Of a stretch of DNA of 64,000 nt, positions 9,161 to 17,247 are shown piece by piece. The notes beneath the pieces were generated by a model, which searched no databases, had not been told where the DNA came from, and was given only the letters and a program-made list of their open reading frames with translations. The position numbers were made by a program, and so were the translations under genes. Within the stretch, counting starts at the first letter, position 1. The number at the start of each line of letters is the position of its first letter. The DNA comes from Vulcanimicrobiota bacterium (GTDB taxonomy: Bacteria > Vulcanimicrobiota > Vulcanimicrobiia > Vulcanimicrobiales > Vulcanimicrobiaceae): NCBI GenBank assembly GCA_003140215.1, contig PLJL01000005.1, forward strand, positions 132,916-196,915, given 5' to 3'.

Positions 9161-9652
9161 TCAGCTCGCTTTCGGCTTCTGCTCGATGCGCGTTGCGGTG
9201 AGGCGTTCGACGTCGCGGGTCGACAGCACGTGCTGCGCGCGCACGCGATGGCGGTCGGCCCACGGCTTCCAGGCGCCTTCACCGGCGACGAACCACGAGT
9301 CGAACGCGCCGCGCATCTCGATTCCGGCCGAGGTCGACTCGATCAGCACCGTCTGGGGCCGTAGCCCGCGCACGGCGCGCAGACCCGCGGCGAGACCGCC
9401 GCGGACGTCGGGGCGATGTACCGTCACCCACACGACGTGGGTCGCGCCGGCGGCCAGCAAACGGTCGGTGTCGTGACGGTGCTCGGCGGCCGTATCCGGG
9501 GTGAGAACCAGCACGCGCAAGTCGCACGGCTTCTCACGCACGCTGACCTTCATCGCGACCTTCGCAATCGCCGGCTCGGCGCGCAAGAGATGCTCCGCCA
9601 GGGTCGTTTTCCCAACGTTGGAAGCGCTTCCGCCGACGACGACGATCCGCAC
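9161..9652 (-). CDS. Small P-loop NTPase, last gene of the fdh locus (MobB-like?)
   Basis: 163 residues from GTG 9652. The N-terminus is a strand followed by a Walker A loop, GGSASNVGKTT (about residues 6-16), then a KVSVREKPCD segment that could carry metal or nucleotide contacts. The fold resembles SIMIBI-class NTPases such as MobB (Mo-bis-MGD synthesis). A role in cofactor supply for the formate dehydrogenase is inferred from position only: it starts 20 bases after the NrfD gene on the same strand. It could equally be another maturation GTPase. Confidence 0.72.
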   Translation of the reverse strand: MRIVVVGGSASNVGKTTLAEHLLRAEPAIAKVAMKVSVREKPCDLRVLVLTPDTAAEHRHDTDRLLAAGATHVVWVTVHRPDVRGGLAAGLRAVRGLRPQTVLIESTSAGIEMRGAFDSWFVAGEGAWKPWADRHRVRAQHVLSTRDVERLTATRIEQKPKAS

Positions 9653-9672
9653 GGCGGCGCCGGTCCCCGAAA

Positions 9673-10566
9673 CTAGGTCTGGGCGCTGAAGATGACGATG
9701 TACCGCATGATCAACACGCCCGCCAGCACCACGATCGCCGACAGCGAGCCCATCCCGGTGGCCGTGCCGGTGGTGACGACGCTGCCCGCGCCGGCGAGCT
9801 GCAAGCGCCGCCCGCCGACGAAGCCGCGGAACGCCGGCAGCAGGCTGATCATCACCAGGATCCACAGTACCAGCCACAGCCCCGAGAACATCTTGCCGGC
9901 TGCTCCAGCTTGCGAGAGCGTCAGGAAGAAGATGACGATCATCAGCAGCTCGAGCACCGCGAAGTATCCGTCGGCGACTTGCAACCGAGGTTCGGTCCAC
10001 TCGGCGCCGGCTCGAGACCGCGCGAGTAGCGTCAGCAGCGCGGCGGAACCGCTCAGTGCTGAGGCGACGAATAGCCCGCCGATCGCCCAGCTGTCGCTCC
10101 AGATCGGCTGATTGGAGACGCTCAACACGACGCCGGTGTACGAGCACAGGAACAGCGCCACGAGCGAGCCGAGGATCTCCACGACGCTGTTGCCGCGGCC
10201 CAACTTGCCCAGCGACTGCAGAAACGCCAGGAACGAGAACAAGCCGAAGATCAGCAGCCCCCAGGTGCCCAGCGAGATCGGCGACCAGGGCTTGAAGTTG
10301 AGTCCCGTATTACCGGGCGTCGTGTTGATCATCATGTGCCAGAAGCGCAGCGGCTGGCCGAGGTCGATCGTGAGCAGGATCCCGCACACGACGACCAACG
10401 GAAACGCGATCAGGAACGCCGCCCGCGCCGCGCCTTCGTCGCGCGCGCCGCCCCACAGGCGCAGCATCGTGGCCAACACGTACAGACCGCCGGCAAGCCC
10501 GGCACAGAAGAAATACCCGACGATGTACCAGCCCCAGTTCGGGGGCTGCACGAAGTGCTCGGCCAT
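9673..10566 (-). CDS. NrfD/PsrC-family membrane subunit of formate dehydrogenase
   Basis: 297-residue integral membrane protein with about eight hydrophobic segments and the NrfD-family start NWGWYIVGYFFCAGLAGGLY. These subunits anchor Fe-S/Mo oxidoreductases and exchange electrons with quinones, in place of the cytochrome b subunit of Fdh-N. The ATG at 10566 overlaps the stop of the Fe-S subunit (TGATG). Position directly after fdhA-fdhE-fdhB supports assignment as the membrane partner of the selenocysteine formate dehydrogenase. Confidence 0.92.
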   Translation of the reverse strand: MAEHFVQPPNWGWYIVGYFFCAGLAGGLYVLATMLRLWGGARDEGAARAAFLIAFPLVVVCGILLTIDLGQPLRFWHMMINTTPGNTGLNFKPWSPISLGTWGLLIFGLFSFLAFLQSLGKLGRGNSVVEILGSLVALFLCSYTGVVLSVSNQPIWSDSWAIGGLFVASALSGSAALLTLLARSRAGAEWTEPRLQVADGYFAVLELLMIVIFFLTLSQAGAAGKMFSGLWLVLWILVMISLLPAFRGFVGGRRLQLAGAGSVVTTGTATGMGSLSAIVVLAGVLIMRYIVIFSAQT

Positions 10567-11393
10567 CACGGCGCACCCGCCGGCGGTACTGCCGCATCGC
10601 CCGCGGCCGGTTCACCCGGAGCACGGCGCCGGAAAGCGATCAATCCGGCGAACACTCCGACGGCGGCGGTGACGAGCGAGCCCAGGTATCCGGGCCGGTT
10701 GTTGCGCCGCGGCAAGACCGCGTTCTCCTTGTTCGGCAAACCGTAGACTTCGGGCTTGTTCATCAGCAGAAAGAACGCGCCCAGGCCGCCGTAGATCGAG
10801 TCGTCGCGGCCGTAGAGGTTGGCATTGTCGTAGCCCTGCGACTTGAGCGCCGCCAGACGCGCGTCGGCCTTTTTGTGCAGCTCGGTGAGCGTGCCGTACT
10901 GGATCGACTGCGTCGGGCAGGCCTTGGCGCAAGCCGGCTGCATGCCGCCCTGCAGGCGGTCATAGCACAGCGTGCACTTGTGCGCGGCGCCGGTGATCGC
11001 GCTGAAGCCGATCGCGCCGAAGGGGCAGGCCGAGATGCAGTCGCGACAGCCGTTGCAGACATCTTGCTGGATGACGACGGTGTCGAACTCGGTGCGCACG
11101 ATCGCGTCGGTCGGGCACACCTCCATGCAGCTCGCGTTCTTGCAGTGCTTGCAGACGTCCGACAGCATGAGCCAGGCATTGCCGTTGCCGACGACCGTGG
11201 GCGCGTCGGGGACCAGATCGACGAACTTGACGTGGCGCCAGTTCTCGGCGTCGAGCTGCCCCGTGTTGTCGAAGCCGTCGCCGAACTTCGGCGGGTTGCC
11301 GGGGAGCTGATTCCACTCCTTGCAGGCCACCTCGCACGCTTTGCAGCCGATGCAGATGCTCGAATCGGTAAAGAATCCGACGGGTTCCGCCAT
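10566..11393 (-). CDS. fdhB: Formate dehydrogenase Fe-S subunit (four 4Fe-4S)
   Basis: 275 residues with four ferredoxin-type Cys clusters: CIGCKACEVAC near the N-terminus, CKHCKNASCMEVCP, CNGCRDCISACPFG and CTLCYDRL...ACAKACPT. This is the FdhB/FdnH/HybA type that wires the catalytic subunit to the membrane subunit. A hydrophobic segment near residues 238-258 followed by Arg-rich residues could anchor it. It starts only 3 bases after the fdhE stop and overlaps the NrfD gene. Confidence 0.95.
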   Translation of the reverse strand: MAEPVGFFTDSSICIGCKACEVACKEWNQLPGNPPKFGDGFDNTGQLDAENWRHVKFVDLVPDAPTVVGNGNAWLMLSDVCKHCKNASCMEVCPTDAIVRTEFDTVVIQQDVCNGCRDCISACPFGAIGFSAITGAAHKCTLCYDRLQGGMQPACAKACPTQSIQYGTLTELHKKADARLAALKSQGYDNANLYGRDDSIYGGLGAFFLLMNKPEVYGLPNKENAVLPRRNNRPGYLGSLVTAAVGVFAGLIAFRRRAPGEPAAGDAAVPPAGAP

Positions 11394-11396
11394 CTC

Positions 11397-12263
11397 TTAA
11401 ATCCCCATGAGGTTGGGCACGAGCTTGGTGAGGCCGCGTTCTCTGGCGTACAGGTCGAGCGGGATCGCGGCGATCTCGTCGACGAGCGGAACCGCCCGCG
11501 GGTCGCGATCGAGGTCGACGGTCAACACGTAGTGCGAACAGGTCTTGCAACCATCGATGCGTAGGTGCGGAAATTGCGCGGTCGTGGCCGGCGCGGACCG
11601 GCCCGCTCCGGGCTTGATGACCGCGCCGGTAAGTTCGGCTTGCGTCGTTCCGACTTCGCCGTGCACGACGAGCTTCGCCGTGTCGTTCTCGCCGCAGACC
11701 GCGCACGTCATTCGCGGATACGCCCAAGCCGTCGCACAACGCGAACATTCCAAATATCGATGGGCCGTAACCAAGTCCTCCGGCGAGGACGCGAAGAAGC
11801 TGAGTTGCGGAAGCCCCGCGCACGTCGGACAATGCCGTTCGTCGCGCGGGCCCGCGCACGCAGCTCCCGCCGCGGCCCCTAGGGCCTCCAATACCGGACC
11901 AGCCGCGGAGCGGGCCAGGTAGCGCGCGACGCCGTCGAGCTCGCCGCCGCGCAGCCATTCTCGGACGAACTTCGAGACGTCGATTTCGTGAAAGCGCTCG
12001 AGCACGGCCGCGGCCAGCGCGGGCGGTCCGCTCCCGACGCTCACCTCGATGACGCGTGGCGCCACGCGCTCGGCGATGTAGGCGCTCACTTCCTCGGGCG
12101 GCGGCGCGTCCTCGCAGGCTGCGGCGTACGCGCGCTCCTGCACGTCGAGCAACCGGCCGTAGAACGTCAGAACCTCGGCCGCGAACGGCCAACGCTCCTT
12201 CAGCTGTTCGGCGCGTTGCCGGCGCTTGGACCACCGGTCCGTCTCGAGGAGGACCTGCGCCAT
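11397..12263 (-). CDS. fdhE: FdhE formate dehydrogenase accessory protein
   Basis: 288 residues from the ATG at 12263, which overlaps the fdhA stop (TGATG). FdhE is a rubredoxin-like chaperone of respiratory formate dehydrogenases. Four CxxC pairs typical of the family are visible: CPTC, CSRC, CAVC and CKTC, spread over about residues 165-255. The last stretch YVLTVDLDRDP matches the conserved C-terminal region. The gene sits between catalytic and Fe-S subunits, an unusual insertion inside the structural operon, but the overlaps show one transcript. Confidence 0.93.
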   Translation of the reverse strand: MAQVLLETDRWSKRRQRAEQLKERWPFAAEVLTFYGRLLDVQERAYAAACEDAPPPEEVSAYIAERVAPRVIEVSVGSGPPALAAAVLERFHEIDVSKFVREWLRGGELDGVARYLARSAAGPVLEALGAAAGAACAGPRDERHCPTCAGLPQLSFFASSPEDLVTAHRYLECSRCATAWAYPRMTCAVCGENDTAKLVVHGEVGTTQAELTGAVIKPGAGRSAPATTAQFPHLRIDGCKTCSHYVLTVDLDRDPRAVPLVDEIAAIPLDLYARERGLTKLVPNLMGI

Positions 12264-15200
12264 CACATCTTCTCGATGGCGACCAAGAAGGCTTTGGTTT
12301 CCGGCGTCCGCGCGCTCGCGTCCCCGACGAACGGCGTCAACGCGTTGACGAGCCAAAGCATCGATCGTTCCGGGTGCAAGTCGGCGGCGACGCCGACGAA
12401 CCCCCAGTGGATCGGAATGCCGACTTGCCACGCCTTCTTGTCACCGAGATCGAGCTGCCCGACGCGATTCGTAACGACGGCACGAACCTCCATCTTGCCG
12501 CGTTTGGAGCTGACGCGCACCATGTCGCCGGTCTTGATGTTCTTCTCTTTCGCCAAGCCCGTCGGCATCTCGACGAACGGCTCCGGTGCGAGCTGCACGA
12601 GATGCGGCACTTGCTGGGTGAGGAAGTGCTCGTGCTCGGTGAGCCGGTACGTCGTCGCAATGATCGGATATTCGTCGGGCGTCCCGAAGCGATTCTCGCG
12701 GCCGGCGGCTTTGTCGTACAGAAACGCCACCGGCGAAGCGGAGTTGTCCGGATGCAACGCATTCTTGACCGGAGACTCCATCGGTTCGTAGTGCTCCGGA
12801 AACGGGCCGTCCGCCATTGTACTCGAGAACAGACGCCCGCCGCCCTCGCCGTTCATGATGAACGGCATCCACGCTTTCGCATCCTTCGGGTTCATCTTGG
12901 GCGGATAGTCCGGCACGTCGCCGACCCACTTGGAGCCGTTCCACGCGATCCCGGGCCGCTTCGGGTCCCAGGGCTTGCCGTCGAGGTCGGCCGACGCCCG
13001 GTTGTACATCACGCGCCGGTTCAGCGGCCAGCTCCAGGCCCAATTGGGGTAGAAGCCCATCCCGGTCGGGTCGTTCTTGGCCGGATCTTGGACGCCGTCA
13101 CGGCGTTTGGAGAGGTTCCCCTTTTCCGTGTAACTGCCGGTGTAGATCCAGTCCCCGGCAGTCGTGGTCCCGTCGTCGGCGAGCTTCGCAAACGTCGCCA
13201 TCTGCTTCCCGCTCTTCAAGTCTTTTCCGTTGATCTCTCTTGCGATCTCGTCGAGCAGCGGCTTGTGCGGATCCTTGTAGTCCATCGTCAGATGCATGAT
13301 CGGATCGGCGAACTTTCCACCGTTCTTCTGATACAGCGCTTTGACTCGCTGGAAGAGCTCGGCGGTAATCCAATGATCGTGACGCGCTCCGCCTTGTGGC
13401 GGGATAACTTGATCCTTCCATTGCATCCAGCGGCCGCTGTTGACGAAGGAACCGTCTTTCTCGATCCAGTGCGTCGTTGGAAGCATGAAGACTTCCGTTT
13501 GGACCGAGGCCGGCGTCATTCCGGGCCCGTGCCAGAATTCGGAACTCGTCGTCGGGAACGGGTCCATGACGACGAGCCATTTGAGCTTCGCAAGCGCCTG
13601 CAGAACCTGGTTGGAATCAGGCCCGATGCTGGTCGCCGTCATGCCCGAGAGCATGAGCCCTTGCATTTTCCCTTGCAGCGCTCGGTCGAAGATCGTCATC
13701 CACGACGAATTGCCCAACGGCTTCGGGATGTAGCTGAACGCGAAGTCGTTGTCCTTGGTCGCGGCGCTCCCGTACCACGTCTTGAGCAGGCTGACCAAGA
13801 ACTTCTTGTAGTTCGTTCCAAAGAAGTTCCAGGAGTTCGGATCGGACTTCTTCGGCGCGCTCTTGGTAACGTAGTCGTCGATGTTCTTCTGACCGGGCTG
13901 GGGGATCTTGAGGTAACCCGGCAGGATCTCCCACGATATCGCGTGGTCCGTGTTGCCCTGGATGTTGGCGTGTCCGCGTTCCGCGTTCATCCCGCCACCC
14001 GGACGTCCCATGTTTCCGAGCAACAACTGCAAGACAGCGCCGGACCGAATGAGTTGGCCGCCGGTCGTGTGCTGCGTGAGCCCGACCGCGTAGACGATCG
14101 TCATCACCTTGTCCGGGCGACCCATCTCGCCGACGAGCTCAGCGACTTTCAGGAAGGCATCCTTTGGGATGCCCGTGATCGTCGAAACCATCTCGGGCGT
14201 ATAGCGCGAATAGTGCTTCTTCAGGAGCTGGAAGACGCACCGCGGATGCTGCAACGTCTTGTCGCGATGCGCGAAGCCGTCCGGGCCGGTTTCGTAGCCC
14301 CACGCGTCCGCGTCGTACGTGCGCTTCTTGCGGTCGTAGCCGGAGAAGAGCCCCTCCTTGAAGTTGTAGCTGTCCTTCACGATGAAGGACGCGTTGGTAT
14401 AATTCTTCACGTAGTCGGCGTGGTGCAGGTTTTTCTGGAGCACGTAGTTGCTCAAGCCGCCGAAGTACGCGACGTCGGTCCCCGTACGGATGCGCAGATA
14501 CATGTCCGACACCGCCGAGGTACGCGAGAAGCGCGGATCGGCGTGGATCATCTTGGCGCCCCCGCCCTTTCCCGGCCCCCTGGCCGGATCGAGCTTGGCA
14601 CGCATGAACCATTGAAAGCCGACCGGATGAGCTTCGGCCGGATTGGCTCCGTTGATGAGGATGAGGTCAGTGTTCTTGATGTCGCGCCAGTGGTTCGTCA
14701 TCGCCCCGCGTCCGAATGTGGCGGCCAAACTGACCACCGTTGGACCGTGTCAAACCCTGGCCTGCTGCTCCAAATGGGTAAGGCCGAGCCCGCGCATCAC
14801 CTTGGTGGCGAAATAGCCCTCCTCGCTGCTGAAAGCGGCGCCGCCGGCGAACGCTATCCCGTCGGTGCGGTTGACGAGGTTGCCCTTCTTGTCCGTCGCG
14901 ACGAACGTCTGATCGCGCGAATCTTTGATCCGCTGCGCGATCTTGCCGAGCATGTCGTCCCACGACATCTTCTGCCACTCGGTCGCACCCGGAGCCCGGT
15001 AGAGCGGCTGGCCGACGCGACGCTCCGAGGTCGCAAGCTGCATCGAGGTCGCGCCCTTCGGGCAGAGCCGGCCTTCGTTGACCGGGCTATCCGGGTCGCC
15101 TTCGATCTGCAAGAGCTTGACGGACCCGTCGGCTTCCTTGCGCGTGTACGCGATCAGGGAGCAGCCGACCGCGCAGTAGGGACACAGGGAGTGGGCCTCC

Positions 15201-15337
15201 GTCGCTCCGGCGATGCGGAGCTTCTGCTTGATCTCGGTCGCCTGGGCCAGATCGAAGCCGAGCTCCGAACCGACCAGCACCGCAGCGGTACCGATGCCCG
15301 CCAAGGTGAGAAAACCGCCACGGGTGACCGTCGCCAT
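12263..15337 (-). CDS. fdhA: Selenocysteine-containing formate dehydrogenase catalytic subunit
   Basis: One 1024-residue gene read through an in-frame TGA at 14752-14750 (residue 196). The context QARV-Sec-HGPTVVSLA is the family's active-site signature, so the TGA is selenocysteine and not a stop or mutation. The 4Fe-4S ligands CPYCAVGC and CPKG precede it. The protein oxidises formate to CO2 at a Mo/W-bis-MGD centre; length matches FdnG. The ATG is fixed by an excellent Shine-Dalgarno (GAGGGGAG, 6 bases before). The N-terminus TRGGFLTLAGIGTAAVL looks like a Tat signal in which the second Arg is replaced by Gly. Ends overlap fdhE. Confidence 0.95.
14720..14752 (-). promoter_or_regulatory. 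SECIS-like hairpin for UGA decoding in fdhA
   Basis: Directly after the UGA come 11 bases, then a 7-bp stem GGTGGTC / GGCCGCC (14738-14732 with 14726-14720, two G-U pairs) closed by the 5-base loop AGTTT. The 11-base spacing equals that of the E. coli fdhF SECIS upper stem. In bacteria this hairpin binds SelB and recodes UGA as selenocysteine. The loop differs from the GGUC-type loop of E. coli. Confidence 0.75.
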
Positions 15338-16297: not shown

Positions 16298-16714
16298 CTA
16301 CTGCTTGTTGATGGTGCCGCGACAGTTCGGGGCCGAGCAGGAGCATCGCTTCCGATCCGAATGGAGCGACGAAACGTAGTCGATCGTGAGCTCTTCGCCG
16401 GCGCGAATGTCGCGCAGGGCGAGCACCAAGAGACGACCGTGCACGGTTTGCATGAAGCTGTTGGGGCGGCAGGAGTGGTTGATGTAGTGCGTGCCGTTGC
16501 CGCCCCGGCTACCGTCGATGCTCCAGCGGCCGTCCAGCCCCGAGATGCGCAAGACCCGCCGGTGACCGCGCCGGTCCGCCTCGGCGTTGGTGATCTTCTC
16601 GCCGGTGTACTCGGCGATCTTCTTGCGCCGCGCGAAACGCGCGGTCGCAAAGCACCCCATGCCGTGAATGCGCGAGGGCTTGACGGCGAGTCCCGGGGCC
16701 AGCGCCAGCCGCAT
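16298..16714 (-). CDS. Small SET-domain protein (putative protein-lysine methyltransferase)
   Basis: 138 residues comprising a complete minimal SET domain: IHGMGCFATARF near residues 17-28, the AdoMet/active-site motif YINHSCRPNSF (about 77-87), GEELTIDY (about 109-116), then a post-SET CSCSAPNC zinc-like cluster. SET proteins methylate lysines; bacterial substrates are mostly unknown. It is the gene immediately before fdhD with an 8-base gap, so it may be co-expressed with the formate dehydrogenase, but a functional link is unproven. Bacterial SET genes are often acquired laterally. Confidence 0.87.
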   Translation of the reverse strand: MRLALAPGLAVKPSRIHGMGCFATARFARRKKIAEYTGEKITNAEADRRGHRRVLRISGLDGRWSIDGSRGGNGTHYINHSCRPNSFMQTVHGRLLVLALRDIRAGEELTIDYVSSLHSDRKRCSCSAPNCRGTINKQ

Positions 16715-16754: not shown

Positions 16755-17210
16755 CTAGTGGGAGAGCGAGTCGAGGGTCGCGCCCGCCGCGCCGGCGGGG
16801 ATGAACCACGTCTCGTCGCCGACGATGCCGTCGACCGTGATGCCGTGCTGGGTTTGATAGGTGCGCACGGCGGCTTCGGTCAGCGGTCCGAAGTCGCCGT
16901 CGATCGCGGCCGAGTAGAGGTGCATGACGGTCAGGCCCTTCTGCAGCCGGGTGACCGTGGGGCCCGTCGAGCCACGAGAAAGCTCGGGCGTGTCGGTGTC
17001 AGGCGGGAGGGCGTTCCAGGTCAGCGGTCCGACGATCCCGTCCGCGACGAGGCCGTTACCGCTCTGGTACTGTTTCACGGCCTGTTCCGTCTGTGGGCCG
17101 AAGTTGCCGTCGATGGGAAGACCGAGCGACTTGTTCTGCACGAAGATGCGCTGGATCCGCTTGACGTCGGCACCGGTCGAGCCGAGTTGAAGTGTCGGGC
17201 CGCTGTTCAT
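16755..17210 (-). CDS. Protein with two peptidoglycan-binding (PGBD) repeats
   Basis: 151 residues made of two PG_binding_1 domains. Each has the signature IDGNFGPQTEQAVKQYQ / IDGDFGPLTEAAVRTYQ followed by VDGIVG or ADGIVG and a Trp. No signal peptide or catalytic domain is visible, so it would be a cell-wall binding module or a cytoplasmic orphan. ATG 17210 is preferred over the upstream GTG 17219 because AAAGGG then sits 8 bases ahead. It is the first minus-strand gene after the divergent NRAMP-type gene. Confidence 0.85.
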   Translation of the reverse strand: MNSGPTLQLGSTGADVKRIQRIFVQNKSLGLPIDGNFGPQTEQAVKQYQSGNGLVADGIVGPLTWNALPPDTDTPELSRGSTGPTVTRLQKGLTVMHLYSAAIDGDFGPLTEAAVRTYQTQHGITVDGIVGDETWFIPAGAAGATLDSLSH

Positions 17211-17247
17211 GATGTACACCCTTTCTCTGGTTGGTACGCCTAGTATT

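Follow-up and report, generated by a model that had tools for sequence, protein, structure and literature searches.

No bacterial selenoproteins are more widespread than formate dehydrogenase (FDH) alpha subunits and SelD (PMC5029168). The canonical bacterial decoding of selenocysteine (Sec) employs SelA, SelB, SelD, SelC and a bacterial SECIS hairpin (bSECIS), for which a published model specifies a stem of 4–16 bp, a G in loop position 1 or 2, a UGA-to-loop distance of 16–37 nt and a minimum free energy (MFE) of -7.5 kcal/mol or lower (PMC13188914). Among the enzymes, the closest described counterparts of the locus analysed here are the E. coli FdnG/FdoG proteins (TIGR01553), whose membrane subunit is a cytochrome b556 (FdoI), and FqoABC, a putative and biochemically uncharacterised formate:quinone oxidoreductase with FdnGH-like A and B subunits and an NrfD-like C subunit (PMC8076601).

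The window (the whole 64-kb stretch of DNA that was analysed) belongs to a 3.88-Mb, 87% complete genome of Candidatus Eremiobacterota. The following features were located in it:

9673–10569, minus strand, NrfD-type quinone-reactive membrane subunit (Pfam NrfD_2, 74.8 bits; NrfD, 62.4 bits)
10566–11393, minus strand, fdhB, iron-sulphur subunit, hydrophobic stretch at its C-terminus (TIGR01582, 165 bits)
11397–12263, minus strand, fdhE-like FDH accessory protein (Pfam FdhE_central and FdhE_C)
12263–15337, minus strand, fdhA, FDH-N/FdnG-type catalytic subunit of 1,024 aa, with predicted Sec at 196
12263–14737, minus strand, open reading frame 3' of the TGA, 824 aa, GTG start, in the same frame as the 195-aa one
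14720–14738, minus strand, candidate bacterial SECIS hairpin, 8-bp stem (14738–14731/14727–14720)
14750–14752, minus strand, conserved TGA, UGA codon 196, predicted to be read as Sec
14750–15337, minus strand, open reading frame 5' of the TGA, 195 aa
15429–16346, minus strand, fdhD, sulphurtransferase for the molybdenum cofactor of FDH (TIGR00129, 181.1 bits, above the cut-off of 140.9)

The fdhA frame comprises 1,024 codons and is broken solely by the TGA at 14752–14750, being otherwise free of in-frame stops. The first-pass annotation had placed this TGA correctly in its V-Sec-HGPTV context (ARV-TGA-HGPTV on the minus strand), but had given the gene an extent of 14720–15337, which has to be replaced by 12263–15337. 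The read-through protein matched TIGR01553 along residues 4–1023 with 1294.8 bits (cut-off 814.2), and its top solved relative was E. coli FdnG (1kqf_A, phmmer E=2.9e-295), whose selenocysteine, written X, is paired with FdhA residue 196 in the alignment. The iron-sulphur cysteines are present (CPYCAVGC at about residues 52–59, a CxxCxxxC motif, plus the distal Cys in LCPKG), as is the metal-ligand motif U-H-x-P in the form U-HGP. By its sequence FdhA is a member of the FDH-N alpha subunit family, with formate oxidation as its predicted activity. The E. coli homologue used for comparison was the fdoG locus, labelled fdnG by RefSeq and carried there as a single CDS. Homology extends over the whole length of the protein, the Sec TGA of fdoG is likewise codon 196 (ARV-U-HGPTV) with the SECIS just downstream, and 34 of 45 nt are identical counting from the TGA onward. 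It had been anticipated that standard annotation would yield genes of 195 and 824 codons and miss the enzyme; the two fragments are indeed what a pipeline stopping at each TGA would produce, whereas the expected loss of the enzyme was overstated, the E. coli homologue being one intact CDS in RefSeq.

The gene order fdhA-fdhE-fdhB-nrfD is retained in relatives from several phyla. The fdhE-like gene occupies an equal place after fdhA in relatives, an fdhB counterpart (62–83% identity) lies in the same position in nearly all relatives whose locus extends that far, and both the window and its closest relatives have fdhD upstream of fdhA. In E. coli, too, fdhD and fdhE are found near the FDH genes. 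The TIGR01582 score of FdhB falls below the equivalog cut-off of 334.7. One difference from the E. coli enzyme lies in the membrane subunit, an NrfD-type protein here instead of the cytochrome b556. In this respect the predicted FdhA-FdhB-NrfD complex matches FqoABC, and quinone reduction is its putative function, the operon of the window differing by the fdhE gene inserted between those for A and B. Directly past nrfD, a reading frame at 9161–9679 contains a P-loop (GGSASNVGKTT) and is perhaps MobB-like; a Pfam search of 9161–9790 returned no match. On the far upstream side of fdhD, which begins at 16346, the gene is overlapped by the frame of a short SET-domain protein (16298–16714, ending at 16298; 138 aa, PF00856, 73 bits), adjoined by a gene for a peptidoglycan-binding protein at 16755–17219.

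Conservation of the TGA was assessed in 89 related loci covering the site. It was kept in 85 of them (some of which represent one assembly twice; 54 distinct 54-nt sequences are included), and the remaining four, all distant (28–47% identity), carry TGT (Cys). Relatives with 70–83% identity along the whole protein share the TGA. The closest named ones (81–83% identity) include Candidatus Eremiobacterota (WPS-2) MAGs, and more remote ones are labelled Chloroflexi, Dormibacterota, Rokubacteria, ANGP1 and Actinobacteria. Within Eremiobacterota, an FDH-N match above the cut-off was obtained in 67 of 149 genomes, and the match table shows one in-frame TGA in each of the 67, with two additional TAG codons in one of them (G105). 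Two FDH-N lineages exist in the phylum, one close to that of the window and provided with a signal peptide, the other at about 41% identity and lacking it. The source genome also encodes a second molybdopterin oxidoreductase (C5:961107–961925), with a weak match to the FDH-N model (130 bits) and no in-frame stops.

The hairpin announced by the first-pass annotation as a 7-bp stem exactly 11 bases past the TGA is present at that distance, with 8 pairs according to RNAfold, or 7 once the apical A-U is disregarded. Its loop is GUU (14730–14728, the apical GU at 14730–14729), situated 19 nt from the UGA, and its MFE is -12.2 kcal/mol. With 8 bp, this loop, this distance and this energy, it falls inside the ranges of the bSECIS model (PMC13188914). 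The predicted stem has no bulged nucleotide, in contrast to the fold of E. coli fdoG, which has one. The covariance-model search that had been proposed as a check gave no SECIS match within the 64-kb window with Rfam at gathering thresholds. Considered alone, the hairpin is weak evidence. Of the 1312 TGAs on both strands of the window, 20 are followed at precisely this distance by a hairpin of 7 bp or more and 12 by one of 8 bp or more, so that about 1% of window TGAs have one, which is not unusual in GC-rich DNA; the fold z-scores against shuffled sequences were just -0.4 to -1.4 and not significant. Comparison across relatives turns the hairpin into strong evidence for a SECIS. Among 27 different 36-nt sequences, 98.1% of cells are paired at the stem positions, versus 31–54% when the partner strand is slid. 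Changes on both sides occurred at three of the eight stem pairs, with G-C replaced by C-G at two of these, and the apical GU was unchanged throughout. The covariation score of 0.352 was reached in none of 500 shuffles, which ignore relatedness.

The first-pass annotation had also implied that SelA, SelB, SelD and tRNA-Sec should be encoded elsewhere in the genome, and had regarded the lack of all of them as evidence against Sec decoding. All four were found in the source genome:

C5:798711–800018, selA (TIGR00474, 477.8 bits, cut-off 267.9)
C5:796841–798703, selB, directly after selA (TIGR00475, 306.2 bits, cut-off 242.25, with a SelB winged-helix domain)
C5:770167–770256, tRNA-Sec, anticodon UCA (73.5 bits)
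C4:386180–387103, selD (376.7 bits, cut-off 125), interrupted in frame by a TGA (ACAG-U-ASKV)

The match of SelB to its model falls in two separate stretches, and its RNA-binding part is modelled weakly except for the last winged helix. The tRNA-Sec gene does not adjoin selAB; about 27 kb of the same contig separate the two. A second RF01852 match above the cut-off was an ordinary tRNA-Ser and was rejected, and a second selD match, under the cut-off, was left out of the count. Like many bacterial selD genes, the one found here contains a Sec codon, and 3' of its TGA a stem (GGCGCAG/CUGCGCC) encloses the loop GUC. All parts of the canonical decoding system are thus in the genome, the differences being just in sequence. 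SelA was found in 122 of the 149 searched Eremiobacterota genomes and, after intersecting the tables by hand, in 65 of the 67 with an above-cut-off TGA-containing fdhA; the two SelA-less genomes are G120 (83% complete) and G086 (70% complete). Many SelD proteins of the phylum have one TGA and others have none, sometimes inside one genus. G120 has two above-cut-off SelD copies, one with a TGA and one without.

Several other explanations of the interrupted frame were weighed. A nonsense mutation truncating a formerly active enzyme, i.e. a decaying pseudogene, would agree with the two fragments that a naive ORF caller delivers, but the same TGA in relatives at 70–83% identity and in 67/67 above-cut-off genomes of the phylum, the lack of any other in-frame stop in fdhA, the intact operon and the presence of the Sec machinery make this highly improbable. 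An error in a Cys codon (TGC or TGT) would require one wrong base in a draft assembly; the independent assemblies from many phyla that carry the same TGA leave this possibility with practically no probability at all.

Other readings accept the TGA as genuine. UGA has been reassigned in some bacterial lineages, and a genome-wide reading as Trp or Gly would have that precedent. Nevertheless, fdhA itself terminates at a TGA (12263–12265, minus strand) which the ATG of fdhE overlaps (TGATG), indicating that the final UGA terminates and UGA196 does not. As selA, selB, selD and tRNA-Sec are all present and the solved homologue has Sec at this position, general reassignment is scarcely credible. Two chains, an N-terminal one of 195 aa and a C-terminal one of 824 aa, might instead assemble, and the GTG start of the downstream frame 12 nt past the TGA would permit it. 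However, neither chain would contain the active-site residue, and the covarying hairpin and the Sec machinery would be left unexplained, so this is no more probable than the pseudogene.

Codon 196 is almost certainly read as selenocysteine, because the TGA is conserved, the stem covaries and the Sec machinery is present, and not because of the hairpin alone; the same three observations support the original proposal that this formate dehydrogenase is a selenoprotein. We consider it very nearly certain that fdhA encodes an intact FDH-N-type alpha subunit whose UGA196 would be decoded as Sec by means of SelA, SelB, SelD and the hairpin, and whose electrons would be passed to quinone. SelA would form Sec-tRNA(UCA) with selenophosphate supplied by SelD, and SelB would bind the hairpin 11 nt downstream, with its apical GU, and deliver the Sec-tRNA to the ribosome. 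Once incorporated, Sec196 would be a ligand of a formate-oxidising Mo/W-bis-MGD centre, from which electrons would travel through the iron-sulphur clusters of FdhB to the NrfD-type subunit in the membrane and on to the quinone pool. We take it to be established for the family that the Mo or W of bis-MGD is coordinated by Sec196 and that electrons reach quinone at NrfD via FdhB.

The signal sequence bears on the membrane side on which the enzyme would act. At the N-terminus of FdhA (15290–15337) the Tat motif reads TRGGFL instead of TRRxFL, so that the twin arginine of the E. coli FdnG/FdoG signal is R-G here. FdhA thus lacks a twin-arginine signal; it stays in the family because this feature is variable and lies outside the family model. 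The second arginine has been lost (R-G or R-Q) in six of ten distinct close Eremiobacterota FdhA proteins, namely that of the window and L089, L090, L092, L094 and L096, while the close relatives L091 and L093 keep it. All tree rows from other phyla have RR, and the tree requires at least two changes. A tatC gene is present in the genome. It is possible, but rather unlikely, that the Sec-containing FDH would sit on the cytoplasmic side of its NrfD anchor, or else that an unusually tolerant Tat system would export it. If this were true, the coupling of formate oxidation to energy would be altered.

With UGA196 read as Sec, the enzyme is a selenoprotein of a well-known kind, rightly spotted from the sequence and ordinary except for its little-studied host phylum. 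No open-access literature pairing 'Eremiobacterota' with 'selenocysteine' was found, subscription papers being mostly outside this search and absence therefore unproven; the sole open-access match for 'WPS-2' and selenocysteine was unrelated, and searching for work on how the phylum metabolises formate and trace gases brought no useful result. The host phylum is the sole addition, and concepts are unchanged. What the finding suggests for the organism is that an uncultured soil phylum, Eremiobacterota, makes wide use of the 21st amino acid, and that this enzyme needs UGA read-through, failing which formate metabolism in such genomes would be under-called.
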